Source: Granulicella sp. (GTDB lineage: Bacteria; Acidobacteriota; Terriglobia; Terriglobales; Acidobacteriaceae). From it: a stretch of 64,000 nucleotides of DNA. Below the pieces are notes generated by a model, which saw only the letters and a list, made by a program, of their open reading frames with translations, did not search any database and was not told the DNA's origin. Of the stretch, positions 29,201 through 47,609 are shown piece by piece (positions within the stretch are counted from its first letter, which is position 1; each line of letters opens with the position of its first letter). Location: contig JANXYX010000003.1 in the NCBI GenBank assembly GCA_025408425.1, positions 1 to 64,000 on the forward strand. The letters are read 5' to 3'. Both the position numbers and the translations under genes were made by a program.

Positions 29201-29465
29201 CAAACATGGTCTGCGCACGGACAGCCTTGACGTGTGGTGCAGCCAGCAGGCTTGTAACGATCGGATAGGTCACCTGATCTTCGATGATGTCTGGTGGCTG
29301 TCCCATCCAGCTCGTGTGCACGATCACCTGAACGTCCGAGATATCAGGCAGCGCATCCAGAGGCACATGTCGCAACGACCAGATGCCTGCCAGAGTAAGC
29401 GCTAAGACGAAGGTGAAGACCAGGAAGCGATTGCGAGCGCAAAATTCTATTAGGCGGGAGAGCAT
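26259..29465 (-). CDS. cusA: CusA-type heavy-metal RND efflux pump, Cu(I)/Ag(I)
   Basis: A 1068-residue RND permease of the heavy-metal branch. The proton-relay motif GVLVDAAIVMVENG (about residue 405) has the single Asp of metal pumps. LYMPTALPGI (about 568) and ENRLDMELTGIKTPLG (about 670) place Met residues where CusA has its periplasmic Met cluster, which favours Cu(I)/Ag(I) over Zn/Co/Cd export. The gene begins 1 bp after the adaptor gene and is the last of the CusC-B-A set. The 145 bp to the GH92 gene downstream contain nothing recognised. Confidence 0.9.
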   Translation of the reverse strand: MLSRLIEFCARNRFLVFTFVLALTLAGIWSLRHVPLDALPDISDVQVIVHTSWMGQPPDIIEDQVTYPIVTSLLAAPHVKAVRAQTMFGDSYVYVVFEDGTDLYWARSRVLEYLQQISGRLPADVHPAIGPDATGAGWVFEYAIIDKSGTHSLADLRSLQDWHLRYALETVPGVSEVASIGGFVRQYQVRVDPNKLLAYNIPLSTVIDRVKASTNEVGGRVLDLSGAQYMIRGLGYLRSLDDLASVAVGSKNGTPILLRDLGSVAFGPDIREGVADWNGEGETVGGIVVMRQGMNALNVIEGVKRKLREIAPSLPPGVQIVSGYDRSGLIENSIATLERDLLEEAAIVSLVIIVFLFHFRSALIAIIALPVAVLISFIPIYLLGVTSNIMSLGGLALAIGVLVDAAIVMVENGYRHLSERQQLDKIPVSEPERGEILIGAAKQVGPALFFSLLIIVVSFLPVFLLEAQEGRMFRPLAWTKTLAVASSSVLAITLVPVLMVLLIRGRLRPETANPISRITQAIYLPVLRFCLKYRKLTIALNLLFLVATLPVVFKLGSQFMPPLFEGSTLYMPTALPGIAVGQAKELLQKQDAILRTFPEVLSVFGTVGRSDSATDNAPLDMYDTTIMLKPKEQWRPGMTYEKLMQDMDAKLQFPGLSNTWTSPVENRLDMELTGIKTPLGLKVQGPNVDGIEQLAAQIQTVLSAMPQVRSIFAERISQGFYVNVDVNRAEAAKYGLSVADIQTAVSSGIGGQTIAENIEGRERYPISVRYAQGFRDSVERMRTVLIGTPSGAQIPLGQVAHISFSHGPAMIRDEDGQLTGYIYIDLKDTNYGGFVDAAVRELHSRISLPANYTFKWSGEYEFELRAKDRLKLILPVVFFIIFLLLYMVFHSVAEAVMLIVPTIYAMTGGLLLQWLLGYNFSVAVWVGYIALFGIAVETGVVMVVYLHEALERRRSKGGALSNADIEAAVIEGAVHRLRPKLMTVTAVLASLAPILWESGIGSDVMKPIAAPIVGGMITSTIHVLILVPVFFVMMKERALRKGRLHPLNQINEEYLADNPKIPAGPQLR

Positions 29466-29466
29466 G

Positions 29467-32285: not shown

Positions 32286-32366
32286 GGCAGATTCTCCTAT
32301 TTCGATAACAATTCGGACGCGATTGCGCATTCGCGCAACTCGAATGAAGTGCGAGCAAGGAGGAGA

Positions 32367-32738: not shown

Positions 32739-33153
32739 GTGCAAAACCAGAATACTCTTGAACAATCAAACACATTCACATCCCGTCAATTATTCACGGG
32801 ACACTGACCTTCCGGCTGTGACCCAGGTCACCTAATCTGCCTAGTAGCTCCCCGTCGCTACTTTAGGGGTGATGTCGTCAAATCGGCTGGAAGCCGAACA
32901 GTCTCCAGATACGGATCGAGAGAGGTGGCGCCGGTTGTTCCGCATGGGAAATCCTAGACTACTGCCGATGAACTCTTCGTTGGGAGCTTGAGGCGGAACC
33001 CGCGCACTAACTCCGTCTCTGACTCCGCACTCGGATAAACTATCACCGTGCTTTACGGGTGTCCGGTCGGTGTTTGTCACTGTTTTGTCATTTATTAGCG
33101 AAAAGACTGTCGCAGGCACCGACAACAGGTACACACTGGATCGAGAGTGTGCC
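32739..33153. other. Divergent promoter region between Cus operon and regulator genes
   Basis: About 415 bp separate the minus-strand Cys-rich/Cus genes from the plus-strand response regulator. Both promoters must lie here. The recognisable element is the two-copy TTTGTCA direct repeat at 33073-33090. No protein-like reading frame was found apart from a short frame-extension upstream of the regulator's start. Confidence 0.6.
33073..33090. promoter_or_regulatory. Tandem TTTGTCA direct repeat, candidate response-regulator site
   Basis: TTTGTCA occurs at 33073-33079 and again at 33084-33090, exactly 11 bp apart. Direct repeats of one helical turn are the normal binding pattern of OmpR/PhoB-family regulators, and such a regulator is encoded 64 bp downstream. 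The same heptamer with the same 11-bp period recurs in the divergent promoter at 44.0-44.1 kb. The site may autoregulate the two-component genes, the divergent Cus genes, or both. Confidence 0.6.
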
Positions 33154-33837
33154 ATGGAAACAATCCTGATTATCGAAGATGACCAGCGCATTCAAAAGGC
33201 GTTGGAGCGGCAGTTTTTAGCTGAGGGCTATGGCGTGCATGTTGTGGCTGACGGTCTGGAGGCGTTGCCGGCGTGCAAGATGGTGAAGCCCGTAGCCATC
33301 GTGCTGGACTTGATGCTGCCTGGAATCTCTGGGCGCGAGGTGTGCAAGAGCATCAAGGCATGGGCCGTGGAGACCCCGGTCATTATCTTGAGTGCAGTGA
33401 GTGATGTAGCGGACAAAGTATTGTTATTAGAGATGGGTGCGGACGACTATGTGACGAAGCCTTTCAGCCCGCGAGAACTGTTGGCGAGGGTGCAGGCTGC
33501 AATACGGCGGACGCGAAGGACTCCAACGGTTAGGACGCTGCGCTTCGGTAGGGTGGCGGTGGACTTTACCACGATGGAGATCACTCGGGAGGGGGAGCCT
33601 GTGGCCTTGACGGCGCACGAGTTCAAGCTATTGAAGTTTTTTAGCGACAATGCCGGCAGAGTGGTGACCCGAGAAGAGTTATTGAACGATGTATGGGGAT
33701 ATAACTGCTATCCGTCGACTCGGACTGTCGATAATCAATTGTTGAAGTTGAGGCAGAAGCTGGAATCCGATCCGGCGCACCCGGTACACTTCCGCACGGT
33801 GCACGGGATGGGATACAAGTTTGTGAGTGAGCCGTAG
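33154..33837 (+). CDS. OmpR/PhoB-family response regulator
   Basis: A protein of 227 residues from ATG 33154; an upstream in-frame extension is rejected because the receiver domain begins exactly at METILIIEDD. The receiver has the acidic pair near residue 9, phospho-acceptor Asp52 in IVLDLMLPG and the Lys in DDYVTKPFSP. The C-terminal winged helix (about 130-225) shows LTAHEFKLLKFFSDNAG and SDPAHPVHFRTVHGMGYKFV. It acts as a DNA-binding dimer. The histidine kinase gene starts just after it, making a conventional two-component pair. The TTTGTCA arrays are the best candidate targets. Confidence 0.93.
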   Translation: METILIIEDDQRIQKALERQFLAEGYGVHVVADGLEALPACKMVKPVAIVLDLMLPGISGREVCKSIKAWAVETPVIILSAVSDVADKVLLLEMGADDYVTKPFSPRELLARVQAAIRRTRRTPTVRTLRFGRVAVDFTTMEITREGEPVALTAHEFKLLKFFSDNAGRVVTREELLNDVWGYNCYPSTRTVDNQLLKLRQKLESDPAHPVHFRTVHGMGYKFVSEP

Positions 33838-33859
33838 GTTGACTGTGAAGGGTGGCGGT

Positions 33860-35641
33860 ATGCACAGGTTGTCGATGCGGACGACGCTACTTATTGCATT
33901 GCTCGCACTGTCTTTTGGGTTGACGGCTACCAGCCTGCTGGTGATCCGCATGACTGTGGAACGGCAGATCGAGGAAAGCCTCGCGCTTGATTTGAGCCAT
34001 TCTGTTAGTACGTTTATGAACCTGCAGCGACAGCAGCGAGAGGCTCTGTCGCGCAGTTCAGCGCTAGTCGCGGACCTGCCGAGTCTGAAGGCGTTGATGA
34101 CGACCGGGGACCGCCGGACGATTGTTGACGGCAGTGCAGAGTTCTGGAAGGTGAGCGGCAGCGATTTGTTTGCGCTCAGCGGCTCTACTGGTGAGTTGAC
34201 GACTGAGTATGTTCGAGGTACATCTATCGTCGCGGCTGATCTGCAGCCTGCATTCAGCGAGTGTCTGGAACACGTGGGGCAGGCTCGGACGGTGCAAATG
34301 AACGGCCGGCTGTTCGAGATGATTGTGCAGCCGCTTTATTTTGGCAGAGATGAGCGTGGCACGGTGCTGGGTTATGTCGCGATGGGGAATGCAATTGACC
34401 AGCGGCTGGCGCGAGAGGTTCGCGACGCCTCGGCGGCTGAAGTGGTCTTTGCTGCTGAGGGTAGGGTTGTCGTAAGTACTCTGACTCCTGAGTTGGAGCA
34501 GAGGTTGAAGTTGGCGATTGGCAAGACTCCGCGAAGTGAGGGTGAGACGATCTTTTTGGGGAGCGAGCGATATCTTGCCGCAGTGGTTCCGTTAAAGCCG
34601 GCAACCACAAGCGGCTCATCGGAGCTGATCGTACTCAAGTCCTATGATCAGGCGAGCAGTTTCTTGATGCGGGTCAACCGCTGGGTTGCCGGCCTGGGAA
34701 CTCTGGCACTGGTCCTGGGAGGGCTCCTTGCTATCTCCATTTCATGGAGAGTGACAAGGCCGCTGGAGGGATTGGTAGATGGGGCGAGAGCGTTAGGACG
34801 AGGAGACTTCAGCTACGGCCTTGGGAATGGTGGCACCGCAGAGGTGGTGGAACTGCGTGAAGCGTTCGAACGAATGAGGGCGGAGTTGCTGCAGTCGCAG
34901 CGGGATGTGCTGGAGGCCGAGCGGCTTGCGACTATTGGAAGAATGGCCCGCTCCATCTCGCACGATTTGCGACATTATCTTTCTGCGATGTACGCCAATG
35001 CTGAGTTCCTGAGTCTTGCTGACACACCACAACGGGAGCGCGAAGAGTTGATTGGTGAAGTCGAGTTGGCGGTGCATGGCATGACAGATCTCTTGGATTC
35101 GCTGCTTATCTTTAGCCAAACGGGCAAGACGTTGAACCAGCAGGACGAGCTTATAGAGGTAGTTATTGAGCGCGCAGTGAGTATGTTGCGTGCGCATCCC
35201 GAGGCGCGGGACGTTTGCATCGAGATTGAAACCCTGCCCGACATCCAGTTACTGGTGGATGGAAAGAAGCTCGGGCGGGCAATTTTCAACCTGATGCTGA
35301 ATGCCTGTCAGGCAGCGCATCGCGGAAGTGGACCACCGCAGGTCCGGCTAAGTGTTACGCAAGCGGATGAGAGACTGTACGTGCGGGTGACGGACAGCGG
35401 CCAGGGAGTACCCGAGGCAATTCGGGAGACGATGTTCGATCCGTTCGTCAGTGAAGGTAAGGCGAGTGGGGTCGGACTGGGGCTCACGGTGGCGTTGCAC
35501 ATCGCACAAGAGCACGCTGGCACGGTGCAACTAGAGGAGAGCACGGCAGGCAGAACAGTCTTTGTGATTGTGCTGCCGATCATGGTGAAGAATAGTGGTC
35601 TTGCAGTTGCCGGCGGCACGTGGCGCGTCACTTCAAATTAG
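33860..35641 (+). CDS. Sensor histidine kinase with periplasmic sensor domain and HAMP
   Basis: About 593 residues from ATG 33860. A GTG at 33827 would add 11 residues but overlaps the regulator gene and lacks a ribosome site. There are helices at about 6-28 and 270-292 with an extracytoplasmic Cache-like domain between them, then a HAMP segment. The H-box ISHDLRHYLSAMYANAEFL has its His near 367. Then come N-box FNLMLNACQAAH (about 477), G1 DSGQGVPEA and G2 VGLGLTVALHIAQEH. This is the partner of the preceding regulator. The signal is unknown; copper or redox state is suggested only by the neighbouring genes. Confidence 0.92.
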   Translation: MHRLSMRTTLLIALLALSFGLTATSLLVIRMTVERQIEESLALDLSHSVSTFMNLQRQQREALSRSSALVADLPSLKALMTTGDRRTIVDGSAEFWKVSGSDLFALSGSTGELTTEYVRGTSIVAADLQPAFSECLEHVGQARTVQMNGRLFEMIVQPLYFGRDERGTVLGYVAMGNAIDQRLAREVRDASAAEVVFAAEGRVVVSTLTPELEQRLKLAIGKTPRSEGETIFLGSERYLAAVVPLKPATTSGSSELIVLKSYDQASSFLMRVNRWVAGLGTLALVLGGLLAISISWRVTRPLEGLVDGARALGRGDFSYGLGNGGTAEVVELREAFERMRAELLQSQRDVLEAERLATIGRMARSISHDLRHYLSAMYANAEFLSLADTPQREREELIGEVELAVHGMTDLLDSLLIFSQTGKTLNQQDELIEVVIERAVSMLRAHPEARDVCIEIETLPDIQLLVDGKKLGRAIFNLMLNACQAAHRGSGPPQVRLSVTQADERLYVRVTDSGQGVPEAIRETMFDPFVSEGKASGVGLGLTVALHIAQEHAGTVQLEESTAGRTVFVIVLPIMVKNSGLAVAGGTWRVTSN

Positions 35642-35663
35642 TTTGACTGGAGAAGCTCAGGTC

Positions 35664-37217
35664 ATGGGATTCAACTGCGGCAGATGGTACAGGCCGGTTC
35701 TGTGGTTTATGGGGTGGTGCTTGCTCTGTGAGGCGAGCTGCACACAGTCAATGCTGGCTCAAGGAAACCCTATCCAGCCAAGCTCGACCACGACGGCGAT
35801 GACTGCTCCGCAGATGGAGAAGCGTCTGAAGGAAGTGACTGACTTGCTGTTGGAGACGAGGCGGCAGCTTGAGCAATCCAGGGAGCAGATGAATGCGTTG
35901 ACCGCTGAGATTGAGTCAATGAAACAGCAGATGGCATTGATCCCGAGTACGGCTCCGACGGAGGAGAGTTCCACTTCGACATCACTTGCCGAGACGGTTG
36001 CGCGACAAGGAGAAGAGCAAGAAGTTCAGCAGGCGGAGATACGCCAGCATGAGCAGACGAAGGTGGAGTCGTCGTCGAAGTACGCGCTCCAGCTTTATGG
36101 GTTGGTGCTGTTTAACGCGTACTCGAACGCTGGCGTTGTCGACAATTTGAATCTGCCTTCGATTGCGCTGCGGAGGCCGGCAGGCGCGAGCCATGGCAGT
36201 TTGGGCGCGACGATGCGGCAGACAGTACTGGGACTGCATGGCACGGGGCCGAGGATTCTTGGCGCGCAGACTTCGGGCGATGTGGCGGCGGATTTTTTCA
36301 GCAACGTTTCTTACGACTACTATGGCAACTCGGTGGGCAACTTGAGATTGCGCAGGGCAGATATTGGGCTGGAGTGGAAGCGGAATGCCGTTCACGCAGG
36401 TGTGGATGGCCCGTTGATCTCTCCCAACTCGCCAACCAGTTATGCTTCGATTGGAGTTCCCGCGCTGGCGTGGGCCGGAAACCTGTGGAACTGGTCAACA
36501 CAGGTTCGCTACCGGCACGCAATCCAGTTGAGCGAGAGGCATGCGCTCGAACTGCAAGGCGGGTTGTGGGATGCACCTGTTATCGGACTGAATACAACCA
36601 CTGCAGCTCCTGTGCCCAGCGCGGGCGAACTCTCGCGGCGACCTGGGCTGGAGGGTCGGGTCGCTTATCACGCAGGACCAGAGGATGATGCCCTGGTGGT
36701 TGGCATCGGAGCTTATACGGGACAGGAGCACTATAACGGTAATTTCAACCTGCACACTTGGGCGCTGACGGGTGATTGGCAGATTCCATTGACGCGCAGG
36801 TTTAGTATCAACGGAGAGATCTATCGTGGTGTGGGGTTGGGCGGCTTTGGTGGTGGCGCCTACAAAGATGTCTTGAGCAGCACCGACCCGGTGACAGGTA
36901 TCACAAGTACGATTGGACTTAATGCAGTGGGCGGATGGGGCCAGATAAGGGCGAAGATTATGCCGTCTCTGGCGCTACATTTGGCCTACGGACAAGATGG
37001 AGGATTTGCGGCTGATTTTCGAAAGATAGAGCTTTATGGGAGCGCGTATCCATTGGAGCTAAGTGCGAGGAACAGGATGATGTTCGGCAACCTTGTATAC
37101 CGGCCAAAGACGTATTTAATCTTCTCTCCGGAGATCCGCAGGATTGAGAGCTGGCAGATAACCGGTTCTCCGAACGTGGCAAATGTATTTACGCTATCGG
37201 CAGGGTATCAATTTTGA
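35664..37217 (+). CDS. Outer-membrane porin-like beta-barrel with N-terminal coiled coil
   Basis: About 517 residues from ATG 35664, which has GGAG about 10 nt upstream. After a signal sequence comes a coiled coil (about 45-125, MEKRLKEVTDLLLETRRQLE). From LYGLVLFNAYSNAGVV onward the sequence alternates polar and aromatic residues like a porin barrel and ends in aromatic Phe (LSAGYQF), the usual signal for barrel insertion. The coiled coil could form a periplasmic trimer stalk. It lies 22 bp after the histidine kinase gene and just ahead of the plastocyanin-like gene, so it is probably in the same operon. No substrate can be assigned. Confidence 0.75.
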   Translation: MGFNCGRWYRPVLWFMGWCLLCEASCTQSMLAQGNPIQPSSTTTAMTAPQMEKRLKEVTDLLLETRRQLEQSREQMNALTAEIESMKQQMALIPSTAPTEESSTSTSLAETVARQGEEQEVQQAEIRQHEQTKVESSSKYALQLYGLVLFNAYSNAGVVDNLNLPSIALRRPAGASHGSLGATMRQTVLGLHGTGPRILGAQTSGDVAADFFSNVSYDYYGNSVGNLRLRRADIGLEWKRNAVHAGVDGPLISPNSPTSYASIGVPALAWAGNLWNWSTQVRYRHAIQLSERHALELQGGLWDAPVIGLNTTTAAPVPSAGELSRRPGLEGRVAYHAGPEDDALVVGIGAYTGQEHYNGNFNLHTWALTGDWQIPLTRRFSINGEIYRGVGLGGFGGGAYKDVLSSTDPVTGITSTIGLNAVGGWGQIRAKIMPSLALHLAYGQDGGFAADFRKIELYGSAYPLELSARNRMMFGNLVYRPKTYLIFSPEIRRIESWQITGSPNVANVFTLSAGYQF

Positions 37218-38008
37218 TGGATCAGCCGCTGAATAAGAGACGAAGGTGGAGCGGACACATGTTACTGCGTCTGACGGCGCGGTCATTGTTGTTTGCAGCA
37301 TGCTGTTTATCGGGCGGAGTGATGTGGGGGCAGGGCGCGACTGTCTCGCTCCAGGTCCAGCTTGAGCGAGTTCATTCGACGGAGCCGGGGGCTAAGAGTC
37401 CGCAGGACAAACGGCCGTCTACAAGTTCAGCGGATGTAGTGGTGTGGCTATCGCCCGAGGGAAGTAATGGCATAGCGACGGCACCGCCCGGTCTGCAGCA
37501 GAGCTATCGGATGGTGCAGAAGGACAAGCAGTTCACGCCTCATTTGCTGGTAGTGCCGACGGGTAGCAGCGTCGAGTTCCCGAACCAGGATCCGTTCTTT
37601 CATAATGTATTTTCGCTCTTCAACGGCAAGCGTTTTGATCTGGGTTTGTATGAAGCAGGCAGCCATCGCTCAGTACGGTTTGATCGCGAGGGTGTCTCCT
37701 ATATCTTCTGCAATATCCATCCTCAAATGGGCTCCGTGATTGTCTCGCTTAGAACGCCGTACGTTGCGATCTCAACAGCAGATGGTAAAGTCACGCTGCG
37801 TGGCGTGCCACCGGGAAGCTACCGTCTGCATCTCTGGGCTGAGGAGGTTTCGGGATCATTACTGCAAAAAGCAGAGCGCGACGTTCGAATACAGGGCGAC
37901 GATCTGCAACTTGGCGAGGTGCGGCTGCTGGTCACTAAGGTTGCGATGGCAGGGCATAAGAACAAGTTTGGTGATGATTATAAAAACGAATCCGCGACTC
38001 CTTATTGA
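37217..38008 (+). CDS. Exported plastocyanin-like (cupredoxin) protein
   Basis: A 263-residue protein whose ATG shares one base with the stop of the porin gene. After a signal region (about 15-40), residues 95-180 are cupredoxin-like. The His is in PNQDPFFHNVFSLF (about 127), and FCNIHPQM (about 165-172) supplies Cys, His and Met, the full type-1 copper ligand set. Residues 180-240 look like a small carboxypeptidase-regulatory type beta domain (VTLRGVPPGSYRLHLWAEE). It resembles methylamine-utilisation/plastocyanin-like proteins and should carry electrons in the periplasm. Its placement after a two-component system and porin suggests a regulated copper electron-transfer function. Confidence 0.8.
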   Translation: MDQPLNKRRRWSGHMLLRLTARSLLFAACCLSGGVMWGQGATVSLQVQLERVHSTEPGAKSPQDKRPSTSSADVVVWLSPEGSNGIATAPPGLQQSYRMVQKDKQFTPHLLVVPTGSSVEFPNQDPFFHNVFSLFNGKRFDLGLYEAGSHRSVRFDREGVSYIFCNIHPQMGSVIVSLRTPYVAISTADGKVTLRGVPPGSYRLHLWAEEVSGSLLQKAERDVRIQGDDLQLGEVRLLVTKVAMAGHKNKFGDDYKNESATPY

Positions 38009-38093
38009 AGATGGGCCGCGGTGGAGCATTCCCATCATGATGCGCTTGCTCGGATTAGCAGAGTTGCTCTGAGCAGATTGATCGATGGATGCC

Positions 38094-39239
38094 TTAGTTC
38101 AGGGCAATGTGGGGCTCTGGAGCGGGTCCCAACTCCGGTTGGATTCGCATTCGCCAGAAGAGCGTAGCGGCGACCAAGGCGATGGCTGCGATACCTCGCA
38201 GCGAAGATGGATACCCGTAACGTACGAAGGCTCCTCCCGCGAGAGTCGCAGCAATAGCCTGCGAAGATGACATGACAACGCTGTTGCACGCGGAGGCGCC
38301 ACCTCGTTGTTCGGCTGGGACCATATTCATGAGCAGGCTGTAGAGCCCAGGCTCATTCATCCACTGGAAAGCGGTGAATCCGACATAGGCTGCCGTTGCA
38401 CCAAGGGGATGACTTGTCGCAGCCAGGGCGACGAGCAGCAGACCACTGATGACCTGCGTCGAGACGATGCCGCTGACGATACCCAAGCGCCGGAACAGCA
38501 AGGGAGCTGCAAGGACGGCGGCAACTTGCGCGAACTGCGAGATGGAGAATGCATTGCCTATCTGGGGTAACGACATGTGCAGGTGCTGAGCCAGATACAC
38601 CGTGGCGAAGGGGCTGAACGAGCCGGTCACCATGCTCCAGATGGCTATGGCCGGCAGGAACCTGAGCATAAAGGGTGAGATAAGCGGCTTGTCTCGTTCC
38701 GGTAATTTTGCACGAGTAAAGGTGAGCCTTGTAACAGGCCATACGCCGATGGCTACGATGCAGCAGGAGAGCAATAAGACAGACTGTTCTGGTTGCAGCA
38801 CATGGGACAGCATGTGATGGATTGCAAGCCAGCCAGGGAGCCTGCTTCCGACCAGACCTCCCAAAGCCCCGACGCCAATACCGAGCGAGAAGACGAGGCT
38901 GAAGGCGAAGGGACGTTGCCGCTCTTCCGTTAGCTGCGCGACGGCTGGGGAGAGGCAAATCGCCCAGGCAGAAAGTGCGACTCCAGCGATAAAGGCCAGT
39001 GAGATTTGCCATGCAAATGAGAGCAAAACTGCACGAGCCGAAGACGCGACGATGATGAGCGAGAAGCAGGAGAGCAGCATAGGACGCAGGCCAAACCGCT
39101 GAGCTAGCTTGCCAATCGGTATCGCCCCGGCAAGATTTCCGATAGCCATGGCGCTTGTGAGCAAGCCTAGTGATTTCTCTGTGTAACCGTGACCGATCAA
39201 GAAAAGATTGAAGAGGAAGAAGTATATGGACAGGCCCAA
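38094..39239 (-). CDS. MFS transporter, main reading frame (first helix lies in the preceding gene's frame)
   Basis: The 381-codon frame begins with a TTG and lacks the start of a normal MFS protein. It opens mid-helix (LGLSIYFFLFNLFLIGHGY) and then continues as a typical transporter (GKLAQRFGLRPML between helices 2 and 3; about 11 helices). The missing beginning, QFWIFLAASFFF, is present just upstream but in the frame of the nucleotidyltransferase gene. The two frames meet at a run of nine T, and reading one extra T, or a -1 slip, joins them as SFFFDLGLSIYFF. There is no ATG or good ribosome site at the TTG. Either this is a frameshifted gene, or a slippage product with the upstream protein. 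The substrate is unknown; a drug or peptide exporter is possible. Confidence 0.75.
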   Translation of the reverse strand: MGLSIYFFLFNLFLIGHGYTEKSLGLLTSAMAIGNLAGAIPIGKLAQRFGLRPMLLSCFSLIIVASSARAVLLSFAWQISLAFIAGVALSAWAICLSPAVAQLTEERQRPFAFSLVFSLGIGVGALGGLVGSRLPGWLAIHHMLSHVLQPEQSVLLLSCCIVAIGVWPVTRLTFTRAKLPERDKPLISPFMLRFLPAIAIWSMVTGSFSPFATVYLAQHLHMSLPQIGNAFSISQFAQVAAVLAAPLLFRRLGIVSGIVSTQVISGLLLVALAATSHPLGATAAYVGFTAFQWMNEPGLYSLLMNMVPAEQRGGASACNSVVMSSSQAIAATLAGGAFVRYGYPSSLRGIAAIALVAATLFWRMRIQPELGPAPEPHIALN

Positions 39240-40561
39240 GTCAAAAAAAAAGAGGCAGCCAGGAATATCCAGAACTGTCGTATGAGTTGATGCTGTGAGA
39301 AGCGCCAGCGAAGGCCACGCAGTATGGTGGCAAAGTTGAGATAGTTAAACGAGGTGAAAGTGGAGAATAGGTAGGCCACATACTGTGAATAACGGTGGGA
39401 CCCGCTAGACGACCTGCTTCGCCGATTCTTGATGCTTACTGCGGGGGAATTGATGGGCGGAATCCGATAGGGGAGCAAAAAGCGTTTGAGCAGGACTCTT
39501 TTTGCTGTTGGGGATTGCAGTAAGCTCCAGTGCAGCCATACCGAGTCTTTGTTTTGATGGAACATGCCTTCAAGAGCAGACCCGATGAAGCGGTGCAGCC
39601 AGCGTTGTTGCACGGTGGGTAGATTCGCGATTTCGTCTTCGGCTCGGGGATGGAGGTCGCAACCGAACCAAGCGCGGGCATAGTAAAAAGTGATGGCTTC
39701 AAGCGATTGCAAAGTTGGATTGTGGGTCTCGTGCCAATTTCTCCAAAAGGCATCGTCGTTTGCGTGGGAGTGAAGAAAGGCAGCCAGTTCGCGAACGTGA
39801 TGGATGATCCAGGTTGGGGAAAGTATGTTGCGGAGGATATGTAAGGCGAGATAGCCGAGTTGATCAGCGGGGCTGAGACATGGAAAAGAGAAGCCGTCGA
39901 CGTCTCGCGTGATTCTTCTTTCCCAGAAGCTGCTAACCCCTGGGACGTTAAACAAAAGGCGACCTCGGTTCCAGAGGCAAAAGTGCAACTCGATGGAGAG
40001 GGGCATCTCAGGATCGAATGGATTCCCTCTCCAGGTCCAACCGCCGAGGCGAACTAGAGCTGGCGCATGGTCCGCGCGGCCATCGACACCGCCGTCAGGT
40101 TTGTAGCCGATGGCTTGCAAGGCGATTTGCGCGCGTTCAATCTTTTCTTCCGGACAATACAAGTCAATATCGGATTGAGACCGGTTCCGCGGATCTTTGA
40201 CGTAGTCCGGAGACTGCGTGAAGCCCTTTATGACAATGTGCTCAACTCCTGCATCATGGAGGGCTCTCGCTGCTTCACTGTAGGTTGCCTGTACATGCTC
40301 GAAGCGTCGGGCGTTATCGGCGATGTTTGTTCTGAGGCGTTCGACGACCCAGGAGGGAAATCCGTCGTTTGGCAACAGTGCGAGAGAGAGCGTGAGGTGC
40401 GCCAAGTCGCTAAAAGTGAGCAGGCTGGTCCACTCCTCATTGGACAACGTCTCCAGGAGCGTTAGATCTGGTGCATTTAGTTGAAGTGCGGTGATGAGTG
40501 CGCTGACCTCGCGAGGGATTCTCAGTGCGGGCCTGTCAGTTCTGTTGAAGAGGGATTTCAT
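39197..40561 (-). CDS. Nucleotidyltransferase-family protein (NTP_transf_5-like)
   Basis: About 454 residues from ATG 40559-40561 (MKSLFNRTDRPALRI). A longer open frame up to 40771 only reads across the kinase gene out of frame and is rejected. The nucleotidyltransferase pattern GVEHIVIKGFTQSPDY, then RSQSDIDLYCP with the metal-binding Asp pair (about residue 132), matches the large uncharacterised family often found beside HprK-like kinases. The last 30 residues (QFWIFLAASFF and after) look like a membrane helix of the following MFS protein, so the normal C-terminus is probably near LRGLRWRFS. The gene begins 7 bp after the stop of the HprK-like gene. Confidence 0.78.
   Translation of the reverse strand: MKSLFNRTDRPALRIPREVSALITALQLNAPDLTLLETLSNEEWTSLLTFSDLAHLTLSLALLPNDGFPSWVVERLRTNIADNARRFEHVQATYSEAARALHDAGVEHIVIKGFTQSPDYVKDPRNRSQSDIDLYCPEEKIERAQIALQAIGYKPDGGVDGRADHAPALVRLGGWTWRGNPFDPEMPLSIELHFCLWNRGRLLFNVPGVSSFWERRITRDVDGFSFPCLSPADQLGYLALHILRNILSPTWIIHHVRELAAFLHSHANDDAFWRNWHETHNPTLQSLEAITFYYARAWFGCDLHPRAEDEIANLPTVQQRWLHRFIGSALEGMFHQNKDSVWLHWSLLQSPTAKRVLLKRFLLPYRIPPINSPAVSIKNRRSRSSSGSHRYSQYVAYLFSTFTSFNYLNFATILRGLRWRFSQHQLIRQFWIFLAASFFLTWACPYTSSSSIFS
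39242..39251 (-). other. Slippery run of nine T at the nucleotidyltransferase/MFS junction
   Basis: On the minus strand the reading is TCT TTT TTT TTG in the nucleotidyltransferase frame. It contains the heptamer U UUU UUG (39248-39242), a known type of -1 slippery site. A -1 shift, or one extra T by polymerase slippage, leads into the MFS frame; the zero frame ends 14 codons later at 39197-39199. Whether this is programmed, a mutation or an assembly error in a homopolymer cannot be decided from sequence alone. Confidence 0.6.
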
Positions 40562-40568
40562 ATATCGT

Positions 40569-41585
40569 CTACCGTCCTGTGAAAGCCAGAGCCTGAAGCC
40601 TGTCGATGGCCCAATCCAGATCGGTATAGCGGAGTTCGAATATCCCGACCTGAAGGAGATGTTGAATGGCGGCATGTTGGGCCGGGTACGATGCGGGTCC
40701 AGGCAGGAGAAATTGATTGAACCAGCACAAAGCGGTCTCTCTGGAGAAGGACAAAAGTTCTGGAGACTCAACGTCGCGACGGTTGAGGAAGACGATGGAC
40801 TGAACGATTGCAGATTCAGCGGTGAGTAACTCTGGCATGTCCGACGTGGGAATTTCTATTGAGGGCTTTCCAGCCGCGCGAGGAGTCACGGAACGCCCTT
40901 CGAGCTCGGGAAAGAGCTGGACTCCTGAGTCGCGAAGCCGAATCTGATGACAGTTGCCTAGAACCATACGGTCTTGTCGATCGAATGGAAGATAGCTGGC
41001 ATCGTCACATACGAAGGTCCAGCCAGCCCGAGCACATGCAAAAGCAAGCGACGACTTGCCGGCTCCGGAATCGCCACACAGCAGCATACCGTGTCCACGA
41101 GGAGCAACGCAGGCGGCGTGAAGAGGTGCGGCGCGGAGAGCAGCCACCATTGAGAGAGCGGCTGCCTCCAGAAAGTGGTATCGAAGATACAACGTGGAAT
41201 GCGCGGTTCGTTGAGTAATCCATCCGAACGAAGATCCGGCGTTTAGATCGCAGATGACAAAGTTGTGAGCGTCAGCGATGTTGGCCAGCATATTTCTATT
41301 AACTCTGCAGACCGGAGCCGGTGGTAGATCAGGCGAGTCAACTGGATCCTTGGTAACACCAATACGCAGGGTCAGTGGTGGGCGCGAGAACCTAGATTGA
41401 AATGCCCCCCAACTCTGCTCGGCCGCTTCGAGAACTGCGGGTGAGTTGGTGGATATCTCCAGGGGGAAGCCGAGGGGGTAATAGATGCCACGTAGAGGTA
41501 ACGCAGCATGTGCAAGTACAGGATCGGCTTCTGAAGGATGGGCCAACTCCACGGTTTTGACAATTCCGTCGCTTACCATCGGCAT
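40569..41585 (-). CDS. HprK-related kinase (P-loop), HPr-rel-A type
   Basis: A 338-residue protein from ATG 41583-41585, preceded by AAGGAG. The C-terminal half has the HprK-type core: a His in PLHAACVAP, Walker A GDSGAGKSS (about 172), and CDDASYLPF with the acidic pair. It is not the Firmicute HPr kinase proper, since no HPr or PTS gene is present. Relatives occur next to nucleotidyltransferases, and in lasso-peptide clusters such as paeninodin a related kinase phosphorylates the peptide tail. The pair here could modify a small peptide, lipid or nucleotide. No precursor or PqqD-like gene was seen nearby. Confidence 0.8.
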   Translation of the reverse strand: MPMVSDGIVKTVELAHPSEADPVLAHAALPLRGIYYPLGFPLEISTNSPAVLEAAEQSWGAFQSRFSRPPLTLRIGVTKDPVDSPDLPPAPVCRVNRNMLANIADAHNFVICDLNAGSSFGWITQRTAHSTLYLRYHFLEAAALSMVAALRAAPLHAACVAPRGHGMLLCGDSGAGKSSLAFACARAGWTFVCDDASYLPFDRQDRMVLGNCHQIRLRDSGVQLFPELEGRSVTPRAAGKPSIEIPTSDMPELLTAESAIVQSIVFLNRRDVESPELLSFSRETALCWFNQFLLPGPASYPAQHAAIQHLLQVGIFELRYTDLDWAIDRLQALAFTGR

Positions 41586-41642
41586 TTCTCTCCTTTCGAG
41601 TAAGTCGCATACACCGGTGATTCTATCCGCGCTGAAGGTTGA

Positions 41643-42134
41643 TTACTTGGCATTTTCTTCCCCTGAGTAGACCGCCGGCTCTCCCAGACTTCCTTCCGGC
41701 GGAAGATGGCGCAGATAGACGATGATGGCCCACATATCGTCATCGCTGAGAATTCCTCTTGATGCAGGCATGCCGGATGGTGCGAGGCCGTTCTCGATGA
41801 TCCACTTCAACTGGCCGTCACTGTATTGCTGGATTTGCCGCGAGGCGAGCGACGGAATGGGAGGTGACATGCTTTTGGCAAAGGGGACGCCGGTGTTCTG
41901 TCCGTCACGGCCGTGACAGACGACGCAATAAAATCCAAAAGCCTGTTTGCCGGCCTCAATGCTGTCCGCGCTGCTGGGCACAGGATTTGTGTCGTGTGCG
42001 CCTCCGACGGTGACCGTGTGCTTAGTCCATTGGACGATGGTGGCCTCCGCTCTGCCAGGCGGGCTCACCTTGCATCCGATAAGTGCCGTAAGCGCCATGT
42101 ATCCAAGGAGTGCGGAGATGCCGTAACGTTGCAT
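41643..42134 (-). CDS. Lipoprotein c-type cytochrome
   Basis: A 163-residue protein with a lipobox (LTALIGC, Cys near 21) and a single haem-binding CVVCH (about residues 70-74). The downstream region GLAPSGMPASRGILSDDDMWAIIVYL supplies the axial Met and the closing helix of a class I cytochrome. It should be membrane-tethered in the periplasm. It starts 4 bp after the stop of the CuA-type gene with AAGGA upstream, in an operon with a second cytochrome and a barrel protein. It probably passes electrons to or from the CuA protein. Confidence 0.88.
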   Translation of the reverse strand: MQRYGISALLGYMALTALIGCKVSPPGRAEATIVQWTKHTVTVGGAHDTNPVPSSADSIEAGKQAFGFYCVVCHGRDGQNTGVPFAKSMSPPIPSLASRQIQQYSDGQLKWIIENGLAPSGMPASRGILSDDDMWAIIVYLRHLPPEGSLGEPAVYSGEENAK

Positions 42135-42138
42135 GGTG

Positions 42139-42501
42139 CTAATCCTTCACGTGAATGGTAAAGACCATAGATCCGTGGCTGCTGCCGCAGAACCTTCCAC
42201 ACTTCCCGCTGAAGTCTCCAGAGATAGTTGGGGTGATAACTACCTCGGTGGGATGTGCCTTGGTGATGGACTGATTGATTTGTAACCCAGGGATAAGAAG
42301 GCTATGAGCAACGTCGTCGGAGAGCAGCCGAAGTTTTACCGTCTCCCCTTTCTTCAAAGTGATCTCGGCTGGAGAGAAAGCATAACGATGAGCATGGATC
42401 TCGATAATGTGAGTCTTGTCCTGTGCCTGGGATGTGCTTGGCATTTGGATTACAAGGCCAAGCAATATCAGCACAGTGGGTATTGTTCGGTTGAGCTTCA
42501 A
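42139..42501 (-). CDS. Small exported protein with a CuA-type copper site
   Basis: A 120-residue protein starting with TTG 42499-42501, preceded by AGGAG at good distance. After a signal peptide (about 1-26) it is a single cupredoxin domain resembling the periplasmic part of cytochrome oxidase subunit II. The ligands fit a binuclear CuA site: His66 in DDVAHSLLIP, then Cys101, Cys105, His109 and Met112 in KCGRFCGSSHGSM. It has no membrane helices of subunit II and no oxidase subunit I gene nearby, so it would be a free electron carrier between the two cytochromes. It resembles the soluble CuA domains known from oxidases and N2O reductase, but alone. Confidence 0.85.
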   Translation of the reverse strand: MKLNRTIPTVLILLGLVIQMPSTSQAQDKTHIIEIHAHRYAFSPAEITLKKGETVKLRLLSDDVAHSLLIPGLQINQSITKAHPTEVVITPTISGDFSGKCGRFCGSSHGSMVFTIHVKD

Positions 42502-42553
42502 GGTTCAATTCTCCTGATGCGTTTGTCGTCACTTCTTCGAGTTGCCAATCTTG

Positions 42554-42850
42554 CTACGGGGCCATGTACTTCAGGAGAAGTTGCTCGTCCTGTCGGGACA
42601 GGCGCGCGCGGGTCCGCATGTGCATGATCACTGTTCCAGTGATTCGCGGCGAAATACTCATGGGTGGTACGTGACAACGACTACAGTTTGTTTTGAATAC
42701 TTCTTCTCCGCTGGGTTGGGCATGATGAACGCGAACGACGACGTTTTGCTCTTGCCCGGTTGGTGATTGCCCAGGCGTTGCTTCAGCAGAAGTCGACACC
42801 AGACTTGAAAAAAGAAAGACGATGAACGTGAAAAGGATTGATCGCCTCAT
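42554..42850 (-). CDS. Small exported c-type cytochrome
   Basis: About 98 residues from ATG 42848-42850, which has GGAGGA ahead and overlaps the stop of the barrel gene in an ATGA. A signal peptide (RRSILFTFIVFLFSSLVSTSA) is followed by a single haem motif CSRCH (56-60). The mature part is very short, about 75 residues, and has several Met (VPPMSISP, VIMHM) as candidate axial ligands. It probably works as a periplasmic electron carrier with the CuA protein encoded next in the operon. Confidence 0.82.
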   Translation of the reverse strand: MRRSILFTFIVFLFSSLVSTSAEATPGQSPTGQEQNVVVRVHHAQPSGEEVFKTNCSRCHVPPMSISPRITGTVIMHMRTRARLSRQDEQLLLKYMAP

Positions 42851-43920
42851 TTCGTCCTCCCAGGCCACAGCGGAAGTAAGAATCGGTAGGTAAAGCCCAC
42901 ATTCCAGATATTCGCATTTCCTCCTGAGCTAAACGTTCTTCCGTAGCTCGATACGAATCGAAGGTCATCTCGTAAGTAGTAGTTCAGTCCTGCGTCAACT
43001 CTTCGGGTATCAACACGGGGGAGACTGTTTCCGCCTCCATTGGCCGGAAAGAACTGCTGGACGCGGGCTACGATCTGCGTGCGTCGCAGGATGGATGGGA
43101 TCGGCATCTGCTGGAACATATACGCCGATTCCAGCCAGTATCCGCGACCGTTATAGCTGAAGTCCCCCTCAGCTTTGATGTCGAGCGGGACAGTTGGTAG
43201 CTGCCAGGAGAGGTAAGTCGCGACGCTGTTGATGTGACGGTCCTCAAGAAAGCGTTGATAGGAGGTCCCGATCTCCAAATGTGCGTGAGGGAGATAGATA
43301 CTTGCGTCGCCGCCAGTGGCGCGGGCAGCCTTGAGTTGATCGATGCCGCTATGTGAGGAGAAGTAGGCCGTGTACTGGAGTGAATAAGTCGGCTTCTGCA
43401 TAGCGACTCCGCGGAGCATGAATCCGTCGCCAGATCCGCTAGTCCGAGTACCGATGGTGGCGGTGATCGGGGCATCCTGCAGGTTTCTAATCCAGATTGG
43501 CTCGAGACGTTCCCCGTATAGTCCGAAGGGAAGCAGGTATCTTCCCGCCGTGGCGATGACGTGAGAGCTCGCCAGCCAATTGACCTGCGCAAATTCAACA
43601 GTCTTGAAGACCTTGCCGGTGAAGGATCCGCTGGTCCGGTCCCTTCGCTCAAAGAATCCGGTGAAATCAGTGCGAGATTCCAGCAATACATGTGAGCCAA
43701 ATGGCACAACCAAGATTGGATCGATCTGGGGTTCCAGCGTTACGATTCCGCCGTTCACATTGTGGACGTAACCCATCCCACCAGATATTGCTGGCACGTG
43801 TCCCGCATGGTTGTCTTCTACCTGCACATCCTGTGCCACGAGATCGCCGGCCAGAGAAAGAAAGAGTGCAAGGGTAAGTGCTCTACGCAGGTGCTTCCAA
43901 TGATCTTGCAGTCTCATCAT
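42847..43920 (-). CDS. Outer-membrane beta-barrel protein of a cytochrome/CuA operon
   Basis: A 357-residue protein with a signal peptide (LRRALTLALFLSLAGDLVAQ) and then repeated amphipathic strands such as HVIATAGRYLLPFGLYGERL and YSLQYTAYFSS. It ends in NIWNVGFTYRFLLPLW. That is the look of a porin-like barrel, but no named family was recognised. Two ATG codons stand in tandem at the start, and neither has a clear ribosome site. It is the first gene of the operon with both cytochromes and the CuA protein. It could admit a donor or acceptor, or hold an electron conduit in the outer membrane; this is inference. Confidence 0.72.
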   Translation of the reverse strand: MMRLQDHWKHLRRALTLALFLSLAGDLVAQDVQVEDNHAGHVPAISGGMGYVHNVNGGIVTLEPQIDPILVVPFGSHVLLESRTDFTGFFERRDRTSGSFTGKVFKTVEFAQVNWLASSHVIATAGRYLLPFGLYGERLEPIWIRNLQDAPITATIGTRTSGSGDGFMLRGVAMQKPTYSLQYTAYFSSHSGIDQLKAARATGGDASIYLPHAHLEIGTSYQRFLEDRHINSVATYLSWQLPTVPLDIKAEGDFSYNGRGYWLESAYMFQQMPIPSILRRTQIVARVQQFFPANGGGNSLPRVDTRRVDAGLNYYLRDDLRFVSSYGRTFSSGGNANIWNVGFTYRFLLPLWPGRTK

Positions 43921-43998
43921 GGTGTGTCTGACCCATTTCTTTGTGCAATCGAGGGCTGTTGGACGATTGGGCGGCTCCGGCAGCCCGGAACGATTCTG

Positions 43999-44004
43999 AG
44001 TATA
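43999..44004 (-). promoter_or_regulatory. Candidate -10 element for the barrel/cytochrome operon
   Basis: On the minus strand the hexamer TATACT lies about 80 bp upstream of the barrel gene start and 19 bp downstream of the nearest TGACAAA box (44024-44030 in minus orientation). No good -35 hexamer is present at the normal distance, so the repeated boxes may take its place, as at promoters activated by OmpR-type regulators. Confidence 0.4.
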
Positions 44005-44023
44005 GAAAAGCTAAGCGTTAACG

Positions 44024-44052
44024 TTTGTCACCACTGTGTCATCGATTTGTCA
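44024..44052 (-). promoter_or_regulatory. Three-copy TTTGTCA array, 11-bp period, candidate regulator site
   Basis: TTTGTCA (44024-44030), TGTGTCA (44035-44041) and TTTGTCA (44046-44052) repeat with exact 11-bp steps. Read towards the barrel/cytochrome genes on the minus strand they are TGACAAA, TGACACA and TGACAAA. The same heptamer and period lie upstream of the response regulator at 33073-33090. This is strong evidence for one shared binding protein, most likely that OmpR-type regulator. Confidence 0.65.
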
Positions 44053-44086
44053 AAGTCTTTGGAGTGACGAATATTGCGCTAAATTC

Positions 44087-44104
44087 TGACAAAGCCGTGA
44101 CATA
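44087..44104 (+). promoter_or_regulatory. Two-copy TGACAAA array facing the TonB receptor gene
   Basis: TGACAAA (44087-44093) and TGACATA (44098-44104) are again 11 bp apart, now oriented towards the plus-strand TonB receptor gene. An AATAAT -10-like hexamer follows at 44124-44129, 19 bp away, mirroring the arrangement on the minus side. The receptor and the cytochrome operon may therefore be divergently co-regulated. Confidence 0.55.
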
Positions 44105-44171
44105 TCAAGTGAGATGAGCGATCAATAATTGAGCTCGACTTCAAATCCTGCTTTAAAGTAGAGGCGAGACC

Positions 44172-47100
44172 ATGCATGGCTTAGCGATGAGAAATTTTCC
44201 AATAGCGCGAGTGGCGGCCCTGTTATTTTTAGTGGGTTCTCTGAGAGCTCAAAGTCCCGGCACCGGAGCTATCACTGGCTTGGTCGCTGATGCTTCAGGC
44301 GCTGTTCTTGCGAAAGCAAGTGTCTTGGTTGTTAGCGATGAAACACACGTTACGAGGCCCGTGTTGAGCTCATCGGACGGAGTTTTTCGCGTATCGTTAC
44401 TGCCTCCGGGAACATACAACATCTCCGCGGCGTCCCCGGGGTTTGCCACCCGGCAGATGCGAGCCGTACATGTAGGAGTAAGCGAGACGGTGACTGTTGA
44501 ACTGAGGCTGGCAGTTGGGTCGACGGGAGAAACACTTGAGGTCCGTAGTACTCCTTATCTGGCCCAGGTTGAAAGTTCGACGCTAGGTCGAGCGGTCGAC
44601 GAAAAGACGATCCGAGATCTGCCGCTTGCCAATCGTAACTATACCCAGATTATTGCTTTGTCTCCCGGAGTGGTTGTTGAGCTTCCTAATGCTTCTGCGC
44701 TGGGGCGCAATAGCCAGAATGTTTCGGCGAACGGCAACAAAACGACTTCGAACAACGTTCAATTCAATGGCATTGACGCAAATAATTTGTCGCAGAACTC
44801 GGCCTCTGGATATCAGTCCGAGGTAGGTACTGCTATTCCCGCTCCTGACACTATTGAAGAGTTCCAGGTGCAGACGGCCAACTTCGATGCTGGATACGGA
44901 AGAGGTGCTGGGGCTAACGTCGACGTTATCAGCAAAGCAGGCGGTAATCAGTGGCATGGAAGCGCGTGGGAGTTTCTGCGAAATGATGTACTGAACGCGA
45001 ATGATTTCTTCGCAAAAAGAAATGGTCAGCCGCGGCCTGTTCTGAAGCAGAACCAGTTTGGATTTACTCTTGGTGGACCAGTGCAACGGGACAAGCTGTT
45101 CTTCTTTACTGCATATCAGGGATCGACGCAGCGGAATGGTAATTCGAGCCTCTCGCTGGTTACGGCAATTCTGCCGCAGATCGGGAGTGATCGTTCCGCA
45201 GCAGCGCTGGGAGCGCAGTTTTGCCCTGTCAATCATCCGGAGAATCCGGGGTATACGACGTTTGCTGGCGGGACACAGATCGCTTGCGACGGATCGAATG
45301 TCAATCCCTCGGCACTAGCGCTTCTCAACTTCAAGCTCTCGAATGGCCAGTACGCGATTCCTAGTCCGCAGACGCTACTACCCAGCGATCCCCAGCAACT
45401 GCCGATTGGTGAGTCGACTTACTCTATCCCCGCAAAGTATAGGGAAGATCAATACACAGGCAACCTGGACTACGTCCTATCGAAGAACAATCAGCTTGGC
45501 GGAAGATTTATTTATTTACGAGCCGCAACCGACGAACCATTTTCTCCATATGGCGCCAATGTGCCGGGCTGGGGAACGAATGAGCTGGATCAAAATCACA
45601 TGTTCGTTCTGACAGACACGCATGTTATTAGCTCCAACCTTGTGAATGTCGCTCGATTTGGCTACATGAGGTTTGATGGCGATGCAGTTATTGCTCAGCC
45701 TATCCAAGCTGCAGATGTTGGTATGTCAACTCCGTCGGGACTGCCACAGACCCCTGGATTAATGATCGATGGGTTGTTCACGATTGGAACGGCGGGGCAG
45801 CCGTTCTATTGGCAGAACACAAATACATTCGTGTGGCAAGATACCGTCTCCTATACTCGTGGCCCGCATAGCCTGAGACTGGGCGCAGAAGTGAAGCGTC
45901 ATCAGGTCGACGTCAACGTTCCTTTTGTGAGCGACGGTTTTCTCGAACTGCGTACTCTCCCCGACTTTCTGCTGGGCGAGAGCGCAGCGCAGAATGGCAG
46001 CAGTATTAGCAACGTCTTCTCCTCGACGGGTTCGTCCGGTGTATTTCGCAAGGATGAGCGCTATAGCGACTTTGCTGGATTCGTTCAGGATGACTTTAAA
46101 CTCGCGCGCTGGCTTACCTTGAACGCAGGCCTGCGCTATGAGGTCTTTGGTCCGCCATCGGATACGCAGGGCAGGCTCCCGACCTTCGATCCAGGCATCG
46201 CGTCGCATTCGGTTCCTGCGACAGGTTCCTTGAGCGGCTTCATCCTTCCCGGGAACTACACCGGCCCGCTGCCACTGGATGTTGTGAAATCAGCGCACTC
46301 CGGACTGTGGGGAACCGACTACACGGACGTTTCGCCACGCTTCGGCTTTGCGGCGCGGCTGTCGAATCAGCCTATGGTGGTTCTGCGCGGAGGATACGGA
46401 ATCTACTTCGATCGAATGTCAGGCGATCTAGCCGAGCAGACTGTCGGGCAGCCTCCGTTCTCATACAAGCAGTCTCTGCAAGGGGTGCAGAATGCCCAAG
46501 CTACATTGCAGCAGCCTTACAACCCGGCGCTGCCACCGAGTTCGAGCTTTCCTATCTTTCTTCCTCGCGTACCCGGTGGGGGTTTGTCGCTGGCTGCAAT
46601 CTCACCTCATCTGTCGGACCCCTATGTTCAGCAGTACAACCTGAATTTGGAATATGAAGTGACCAAGGATCTCCTTTGGGAGGTCGGGTATGTTGGTGCG
46701 AAATCCACGCACATCCCGGGATGCGTTGAGTTCAATCAGGCGCTGCTTGCCAGCCCAGAGAATCCTGTCAATGGAGAGACAACCAACACGAATGAAAATA
46801 TTGTTCAGCGACTCCCATTCAGCGGCATCGCGCAAGGCTCCTATATCTGCCAGACGACTTTTGATGCACGCTACAATTCGCTTCAGACCAGCGTGACTAA
46901 ACGACTGTCGCATGGCCTGCAGTTTCTGGGCAGCTATACATGGTCGAAGAATCTGGACACAACGAGCGGATCGGGAGGTCTATCAAACTTCGAACTGGGC
47001 TTCTTGACGAATGATCAGACCAATCAACGTCAGGCACGCGGACTCAACGACTTTGATCGTGCCCATCGCGGGGTTATAAGCCTGATCTATGCGCCGCCGC

Positions 47101-47609
47101 GGCTTGCATTTGGGCCCGAGGTGTTTCGGCACGTTCTTTCAGACTGGCTGATATCGACAGTGGCTGTCGCGCAGTCCGGGACGCCTGTAACGGTGACCGA
47201 TAGCAATGCTGGCAGCGTGTACGGAAATCTTTCGTTCTTTTCGCGTGCTCAATGCACGGGGATCAATCCAGCAACGTCCGGGTCGTTGTTCTCGCGCATT
47301 GATGGGTATCTGAATCCTGACGCCTTTACCTCGGCGCCGTCGATTGGCGATGGGACTGACTTTGGAAACTGCGGTGTAGGTATTCTGCGGGCGCCGGCAC
47401 AGAGGAACATCGACCTGGCCGTGGAGCGCACGTTTCCTTTAAGGGAGTGGGGTGAGCTGCGATTCCGAAGCGAATTCTTCAACCTTACGAATACCCCAAA
47501 CTTTGGCGGACCAATCAGCAATTTGGTGGCAGGAGCCGCGTTCGGGTTGATTACGTCAACTACGACCAACCCTAGAATTATTCAATTTGCGCTGAAGTAC
47601 TCTTTTTGA
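44172..47609 (+). CDS. Oar-like TonB-dependent receptor with carboxypeptidase-regulatory domain
   Basis: A protein of 1145 residues, from ATG 44172 with GAGG upstream. After the signal peptide, residues 30-110 form a carboxypeptidase-regulatory beta domain (GAITGLVADASGAVLAKASV). A plug domain (about 120-240: TIRDLPLANRNYTQIIALSPG, NFDAGYGRGAGANVDVISK) and a very large barrel ending FALKYSF follow. This form is expanded in Acidobacteria and usually imports or binds glycans, peptides or chelates with TonB energy. The promoter region carries the candidate regulator boxes shared with the cytochrome operon. The substrate is not identifiable. Confidence 0.93.
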   Translation: MHGLAMRNFPIARVAALLFLVGSLRAQSPGTGAITGLVADASGAVLAKASVLVVSDETHVTRPVLSSSDGVFRVSLLPPGTYNISAASPGFATRQMRAVHVGVSETVTVELRLAVGSTGETLEVRSTPYLAQVESSTLGRAVDEKTIRDLPLANRNYTQIIALSPGVVVELPNASALGRNSQNVSANGNKTTSNNVQFNGIDANNLSQNSASGYQSEVGTAIPAPDTIEEFQVQTANFDAGYGRGAGANVDVISKAGGNQWHGSAWEFLRNDVLNANDFFAKRNGQPRPVLKQNQFGFTLGGPVQRDKLFFFTAYQGSTQRNGNSSLSLVTAILPQIGSDRSAAALGAQFCPVNHPENPGYTTFAGGTQIACDGSNVNPSALALLNFKLSNGQYAIPSPQTLLPSDPQQLPIGESTYSIPAKYREDQYTGNLDYVLSKNNQLGGRFIYLRAATDEPFSPYGANVPGWGTNELDQNHMFVLTDTHVISSNLVNVARFGYMRFDGDAVIAQPIQAADVGMSTPSGLPQTPGLMIDGLFTIGTAGQPFYWQNTNTFVWQDTVSYTRGPHSLRLGAEVKRHQVDVNVPFVSDGFLELRTLPDFLLGESAAQNGSSISNVFSSTGSSGVFRKDERYSDFAGFVQDDFKLARWLTLNAGLRYEVFGPPSDTQGRLPTFDPGIASHSVPATGSLSGFILPGNYTGPLPLDVVKSAHSGLWGTDYTDVSPRFGFAARLSNQPMVVLRGGYGIYFDRMSGDLAEQTVGQPPFSYKQSLQGVQNAQATLQQPYNPALPPSSSFPIFLPRVPGGGLSLAAISPHLSDPYVQQYNLNLEYEVTKDLLWEVGYVGAKSTHIPGCVEFNQALLASPENPVNGETTNTNENIVQRLPFSGIAQGSYICQTTFDARYNSLQTSVTKRLSHGLQFLGSYTWSKNLDTTSGSGGLSNFELGFLTNDQTNQRQARGLNDFDRAHRGVISLIYAPPRLAFGPEVFRHVLSDWLISTVAVAQSGTPVTVTDSNAGSVYGNLSFFSRAQCTGINPATSGSLFSRIDGYLNPDAFTSAPSIGDGTDFGNCGVGILRAPAQRNIDLAVERTFPLREWGELRFRSEFFNLTNTPNFGGPISNLVAGAAFGLITSTTTNPRIIQFALKYSF

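Follow-up and report, generated by a model that had tools for sequence, protein, structure and literature searches.

In this study, we examined a 64,000-nucleotide stretch of Granulicella sp. DNA (assembly GCA_025408425.1, contig JANXYX010000003.1, positions 1 to 64,000; hereafter the window), in which a 7-bp TTTGTCA word is repeated near 33 and 44 kb. Judged from sequence, the 33-kb and 44-kb arrays are probably operators of the response regulator encoded at 33154, built from two to four head-to-tail half-sites; we put the probability of this reading at roughly 0.84. The sequence of the arrays, their conservation, their geometry and their co-occurrence with the regulator gene were observed directly. 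The elements concerned are the following.

33154..33837, plus strand: OmpR/PhoB-family response regulator of 227 aa (Response_reg and Trans_reg_C), the proposed binder.
33073..33090, plus strand: putative autoregulatory array of two TTTGTCA half-sites spaced by 11 bp (words at 33073 and 33084); it faces the regulator gene, is the sole exact copy in the genome and is kept upstream of orthologs.
44024..44052, minus strand: left-hand array of the divergon, with three half-sites spaced by 11 bp and directed at the porin operon; minus-strand words TGACAAA, TGACACA and TGACAAA (plus strand TTTGTCA at 44024, TGTGTCA at 44035, TTTGTCA at 44046); top matrix match.
44087..44104, plus strand: right array of the divergon, two half-sites at 11 bp (TGACAAA at 44087, TGACATA at 44098), toward the TonB receptor; third-best array of the window by matrix.
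44005-43999, minus strand: candidate -10 element CTATACT, starting 20 bp beyond the final TGACA of the left array.
44123-44129, plus strand: candidate -10 element CAATAAT, starting 20 bp beyond the final TGACA of the right array.

The preliminary description had reported seven such words, all at 11-bp steps, and these agreed base for base with the sequence. The -10-like hexamers that it had placed about 20 bp beyond the 44-kb arrays were also found, as the two elements given above. It had pointed each array of the divergon toward its own gene, and this was right, but its wording missed the opposite gene-relative polarity at the regulator's promoter: the 33-kb words face the regulator as TTTGTCA, and the 44-kb arrays face their genes as TGACAAA. 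A TGACGAA at 44065-44071, 22 bp before 44087 and in register with the right array, is possibly an additional weak half-site there.

Words of 7 bp are short, and the repeats could in principle have arisen by chance in AT-rich intergenic DNA. We searched for TTTGTCA-N4-TTTGTCA with up to two mismatches. The window contained five matches against 0.29 expected, and five were reached in none of 100 shuffles. The 4.23-Mb genome contained 26 matches, compared with 10 for a backwards control. With at most one mismatch, only four sites were found genome-wide, all of them inside the 33-kb and 44-kb arrays. A two-mismatch pair on contig 5, located 351 bp before a paralogous regulator gene, was considered as an operator and set aside as chance; it lies within a 201-aa open reading frame. 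The shuffles and the genome scan, together with the matrix, the spacing in 27 upstream regions, the composite pattern and the offset test described below, all oppose chance, which is hardly credible as an explanation.

We then determined whether the spacing is conserved upstream of the regulator in relatives, as the preliminary description had proposed to do by scanning the genome and related acidobacteria. Of 61 genomes searched, 29, the source genome among them, had a match to the regulator at E <= 1e-60. A pair of TGTC words at exactly 11 bp was present in 23 of 27 regulator-upstream regions (the window's own among them), and it always faced the gene. A pair at 22 bp occurred in 10 of the 27, and every other spacing from 4 to 40 bp in two regions at most. 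In sets of 27 random 300-bp pieces from loci of the same kind, the mean was 1.2 and the maximum 5 over 200 draws. Loss of the spacing in orthologous promoters had been named beforehand as the result that would speak against the proposal; the spacing was conserved. Both the receiver domain (PF00072) and the winged-helix Trans_reg_C domain (PF00486) scored above cut-off in the protein at 33154, and with one-turn half-sites conserved in these 23 of 27 regions it fits the OmpR/PhoB-family regulators with a tandem direct-repeat operator, here a predicted one. Among distant regulators with less than 47% identity, the 11-bp pair was seen in none of 65 upstream regions on the gene-facing strand; three of 80 loci (L174, L190 and L214) had been dropped from this count because upstream sequence was lacking.

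A 33-bp matrix was fitted to 26 regulator-upstream regions of other species, with the window excluded. It scored above 17 bits in 24 of the 26 fitted regions, at most 5.6 bits in 130 shuffles and at most 11.5 bits on the reverse strand. In the window, its best places were 44024 (20.7 bits), 33062 (19.1) and 44083 on the minus strand (12.1), and the best place outside the arrays reached 10.3 bits. Elsewhere in the same genome, the PhoB/PhoU region, a second PhoU region and four of five other regulator matches had no box by either the matrix or the TGTCA pair.

These results bear on the possibility that the arrays are Pho boxes of a PhoB-type phosphate regulon. The E. coli Pho box, as given in an excerpt of a published study, is CTGTCAT-N4-CTGTCAY (PMC3465305), and the arrays share its TGTCA core, its 7-bp half-sites and 4-bp spacer, and the OmpR/PhoB family of its regulator. 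The regulator at 33154 also scored 195.8 bits with the PhoB model TIGR02154, and 195.6 bits in a second scoring. However, the cut-off of that model is 296.2, and contig 36 carries a stronger PhoB candidate (248 bits, again under the cut-off), with a PhoU gene about 5.4 kb away. The 16-kb PhoB/PhoU region (G000:C36:29000-45000) carries no array, and the target families that were checked included none for phosphate uptake. The -10 is found 19-20 bp away on the side where the array reads TGACA, which is the opposite side of the array from that in E. coli phoA. The system described here also differs from E. coli PhoB in its targets, in having up to four half-sites, and in the convergent paired arrays of its divergons. 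A Pho regulon is therefore a very unlikely identity for these arrays.

The position of the arrays relative to the -10 was examined next. Reading outward from the arrays, the last TGACA was often followed, at 19-20 bp, by a CTAnnnT-like word, and the geometry of the 44-kb promoters was seen again in relatives. The clearest case was a test set picked by protein family and not by promoter, namely loci of the TIGR03118 family (25 of 30; L317-L321 were dropped as weak partial matches). An array in either orientation lay upstream in 17 of the 25, compared with 136 of 2000 random pieces. Of 16 gene-facing arrays upstream of TIGR03118 genes, 15 had nTAnnnT at offset 19 or 20, and none of the 16 had it at any of the other 42 offsets. 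In a second set of 24 exact pairs that included regulator promoters, 10 matches fell at 19-20 and five elsewhere, and the opposite side of these pairs had none at 19-20. Opposite-strand array pairs within 170 bp of each other, including that of the window, were convergent in 10 cases and divergent in none; because several are orthologous, these are not ten independent cases.

We combined box and spacing into a composite pattern, TGACA-N7-GACA-N(19,20)-CTANNNT, because a covariance model of the regulator-upstream regions, R1, did not report the 44-kb arrays. The pattern was derived from promoters already inspected, and among 40 matches in a 37-genome run one, the window's porin promoter, was such a promoter. 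It matched 64 times in 62 genus genomes and three times when written backwards. The regulator was present at E <= 1e-68 in 45 of these 62 genomes. The 45 (232.8 Mb) contained 63 matches, and the 17 others (64.8 Mb) contained one. At least one match was found in 32 of 45 genomes with the regulator and in 1 of 17 without it (Fisher P 4.7e-6, a value weakened by relatedness and unequal genome quality). The sole match in a genome without the regulator was in G007, which is 85% complete, and it precedes a TIGR03118 gene.

In G022, where no regulator was detected, there is a three-half-site array at locus L108 (28.4 bits, box at 4870 on the minus strand). It adjoins a TIGR03118 gene that is in fragments with a stop codon (G022:C1:985095-985983). 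This regulon looks as if it were decaying after loss of the regulator.

The same counts bear on a further alternative, in which the operators are real and belong to another, co-inherited regulator to which the gene at 33154 is merely linked. The link between regulator and arrays was drawn from sequence, which leaves room for such a partner and weighs against our assignment. The recognition-helix region TRTVD is common to the regulator and its paralogs L055 and L056, whose loci have no 11-bp pair at up to two mismatches, so that comparison of the helix does not discriminate between them. However, the array stands directly upstream of the regulator in 23 of 27 regions despite differing neighbours, and the promoter pattern tracks the regulator gene (63 matches against 1). 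We consider a co-inherited regulator unlikely.

Several other observations weigh against the regulator at 33154 as the user of the arrays. The exact TGTC pair was lacking in four of the 27 regions (L045, L046, L049 and L051), of which L046 and L049 have TGTA in one half-site. Nine named relatives with 61-70% identity (L142-L150), which are outside the matrix-fitting set, kept the exact pair in only four cases (L142, L143, L145 and L150), and one half-site was TGTA in L144 and L146-L149. A first offset test with 29 arrays, mostly from regulator promoters, gave little signal, with one match each at offsets 2, 19, 20, 21 and 26; a fixed -10 offset is missing from such a set because the array points the other way there. 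R1 found the 33-kb array and did not find the 44-kb arrays at E <= 10 (150 of 585 candidates scored). The strict pattern was not matched in 13 of the 45 regulator-bearing genomes. The weakening of the Fisher P also counts here, as do the match counts themselves, which are not independent because the genomes are related. Finally, some pattern matches precede seemingly unrelated genes, for example DHBP synthase. Use of these arrays by the regulator at 33154 is nevertheless favoured by conservation in orthologs, by recovery of the arrays with a matrix from other species, by the tracking of the regulator gene and by the R1 matches near it in relatives.

One-turn direct repeats, the family of the regulator and the fixed distance to the -10 suggest class II-like activation at the targets and feedback on the regulator. 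In this mechanism, two to four TGACAnn half-sites, arranged head to tail and spaced one helical turn (11 bp) apart, would be bound by the phosphorylated regulator. At target promoters the array ends 17-18 bp ahead of a CTAnnnT -10, and this edge would therefore place the regulator at or just upstream of the would-be -35 box, where it could recruit RNA polymerase in a class II-like manner. At the 44-kb divergon, two arrays, one per gene, would turn on the TonB receptor together with the porin/cytochrome/CuA operon. The array of the regulator's own gene, which has the opposite orientation and no -10 at that distance, would provide feedback. From these features we infer binding, its dependence on phosphorylation, and activation rather than repression.

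To describe the predicted regulon, R1 was built from the regulator-upstream pieces used for the matrix, 19 of 26 being kept (L040, L041, L042, L045, L051, L053 and L054 were omitted). Of 37 genus genomes, 29 contained matches to it at E <= 0.3, and 16 further matches lay 6-22 kb from the regulator in eight genomes. Arrays near the regulator in relatives precede homologs of genes from the window, namely those for the HprK-like protein, the porin and the nucleotidyltransferase. Genes close to them include SLBB/Poly_export, Wzz, flippase, glycosyltransferase, O-antigen-ligase-type, GT87 and B12 radical-SAM genes. In the 37-genome run, 15 of the 40 pattern matches lay within 300 bp upstream of TIGR03118 matches, as judged by comparing coordinates by eye, and two of the 40 represent a single duplicated contig end. 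Other matches precede radical-SAM, GT87, DsbD, methyltransferase, TonB-receptor, PEP-CTERM and VWA genes. The source genome has one further match, before a TIGR03118 gene at G000:C10. The regulon predicted for the relatives from these sequences includes glycosyltransferase, radical-SAM, DsbD and TIGR03118 genes, and the list of targets suggests a role in remodelling envelope and exported polysaccharide, accompanied by copper and heme redox proteins of the periplasm. TIGR03118 is reportedly mentioned in a paper on hot-spring viruses.

We also considered an exosortase/PEP-CTERM regulon, as TIGR03118 and one PEP-CTERM protein are among the targets, and rejected it: exosortase presence does not track the regulator. 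Exosortase (PF09721) was found in 31 of 37 genus genomes, with two copies in the source genome (C39 and C16). The six genomes without it (G003, G005, G011, G015, G030 and G036) all have the regulator, and G022 and G032 show the reverse.

Whether these targets form a genus-wide acidobacterial regulon for surface remodelling, governed by a single PhoB-like regulator and following a promoter grammar of its own, we regard as an even bet. Under that grammar, targets would carry TGACA-N19/20-CTAnnnT with two to four half-sites in fixed polarity, and the regulator's promoter would have the opposite polarity. Whichever polarity is called direct, one promoter class would use the reversed box, and divergent targets would use two facing arrays. 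A single sensor kinase would thereby be tied to the uncharacterised secreted TIGR03118 family, to polysaccharide-type enzymes and to periplasmic CuA/cytochrome proteins.

The switch itself is of a known type, and the gene set under it seems undescribed; an open-access full-text search gave no described two-component operator in Acidobacteria among the matches listed. Salmonella PhoP, as far as the consulted portion of PMC3335776 describes it, resembles the present system in having repeated half-sites that occur in either orientation, at defined helical phases relative to the -10, and in using several promoter architectures under one regulator. Across 23 promoters, that portion gives no reverse-orientation box less than 24 nt from the -10, with half-integral turns. 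The PhoP box is different from that found here, where target promoters repeatedly show one polarity and one distance, the array ending 17-18 bp ahead of CTAnnnT. As the operator, the -10 spacing and predicted targets are in hand, the signal and the roles of TIGR03118 and of the periplasmic CuA and cytochrome proteins become testable.

The genes around the arrays in the window are as follows.

26259-32330, minus strand: heavy-metal efflux genes of the CusA/CusB/OEP type; the CusB-like protein has a YtkA-like domain.
33827..35641, plus strand: sensor histidine kinase with dCache_3, HAMP and HATPase_c domains; HisKA is under its curated cut-off.
35595..37217, plus strand: barrel-like envelope protein by our reading (no Pfam match), kept beside the kinase.
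37214..38008, plus strand: secreted cupredoxin-like protein by our reading (sole Pfam match fn3_3), kept beside the kinase.
38094..41585, minus strand: HprK-related protein (below curated cut-offs), NTP_transf_5 nucleotidyltransferase and MFS transporter, the rest of the likely operon.
41643..42134, minus strand: c-type cytochrome.
42139..42501, minus strand: soluble periplasmic CuA-type cupredoxin, COX2-like.
42554..42868, minus strand: small c-type cytochrome with a CxxCH motif, by our reading.
42847..43920, minus strand: porin-like protein of 357 aa by our reading (no Pfam or NCBIfam match), first gene of the presumed operon.
44172..47609, plus strand: TonB-dependent outer-membrane receptor of 1145 aa with a CarboxypepD_reg domain, which we take to be Oar-like.

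The box of CusR/CopR is the palindrome TGACAA-N2-TTGTCA, and a copper response of this type, acting through palindromes on the CusCBA-like efflux genes and the CuA operon, would be another way to explain the arrays. CusCBA-like genes lie at 26259-32330, CuA and cupredoxin genes are close by, and the arrays share the TTGTCA core. In a published table, a TGACAA/TTGTCA-type word precedes cusR and cusC. However, the repeats here are direct and not inverted, and no inverted TGTC/GACA spacing recurred in three or more of the 27 upstream regions. The regulator scored 162.3 bits with the heavy-metal regulator model TIGR01387, against a cut-off of 279.2. Between the start of the OEP (CusC-like) gene at 32330 and the beginning of the nearest array there are 743 bp, and targets in relatives are mostly TIGR03118, envelope and polysaccharide-type genes. 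A copper response of the CusR/CopR type is decidedly unlikely.

The kinase at 33827 is presumed to be the partner of the regulator, and its gene adjoins the regulator gene in many relatives. Polysaccharide export genes are often near the regulator in relatives (L090, L091, L093, L111-L117 and L128, with Pfam matches in L090 and L111), and none were seen at the window's own locus. Homologs of several members of the apparent operon at 38094-44005 on the minus strand recur near the regulator in relatives. Homologs of the porin-like protein adjoin arrays in at least L098, L112, L113, L116, L117 and L122.

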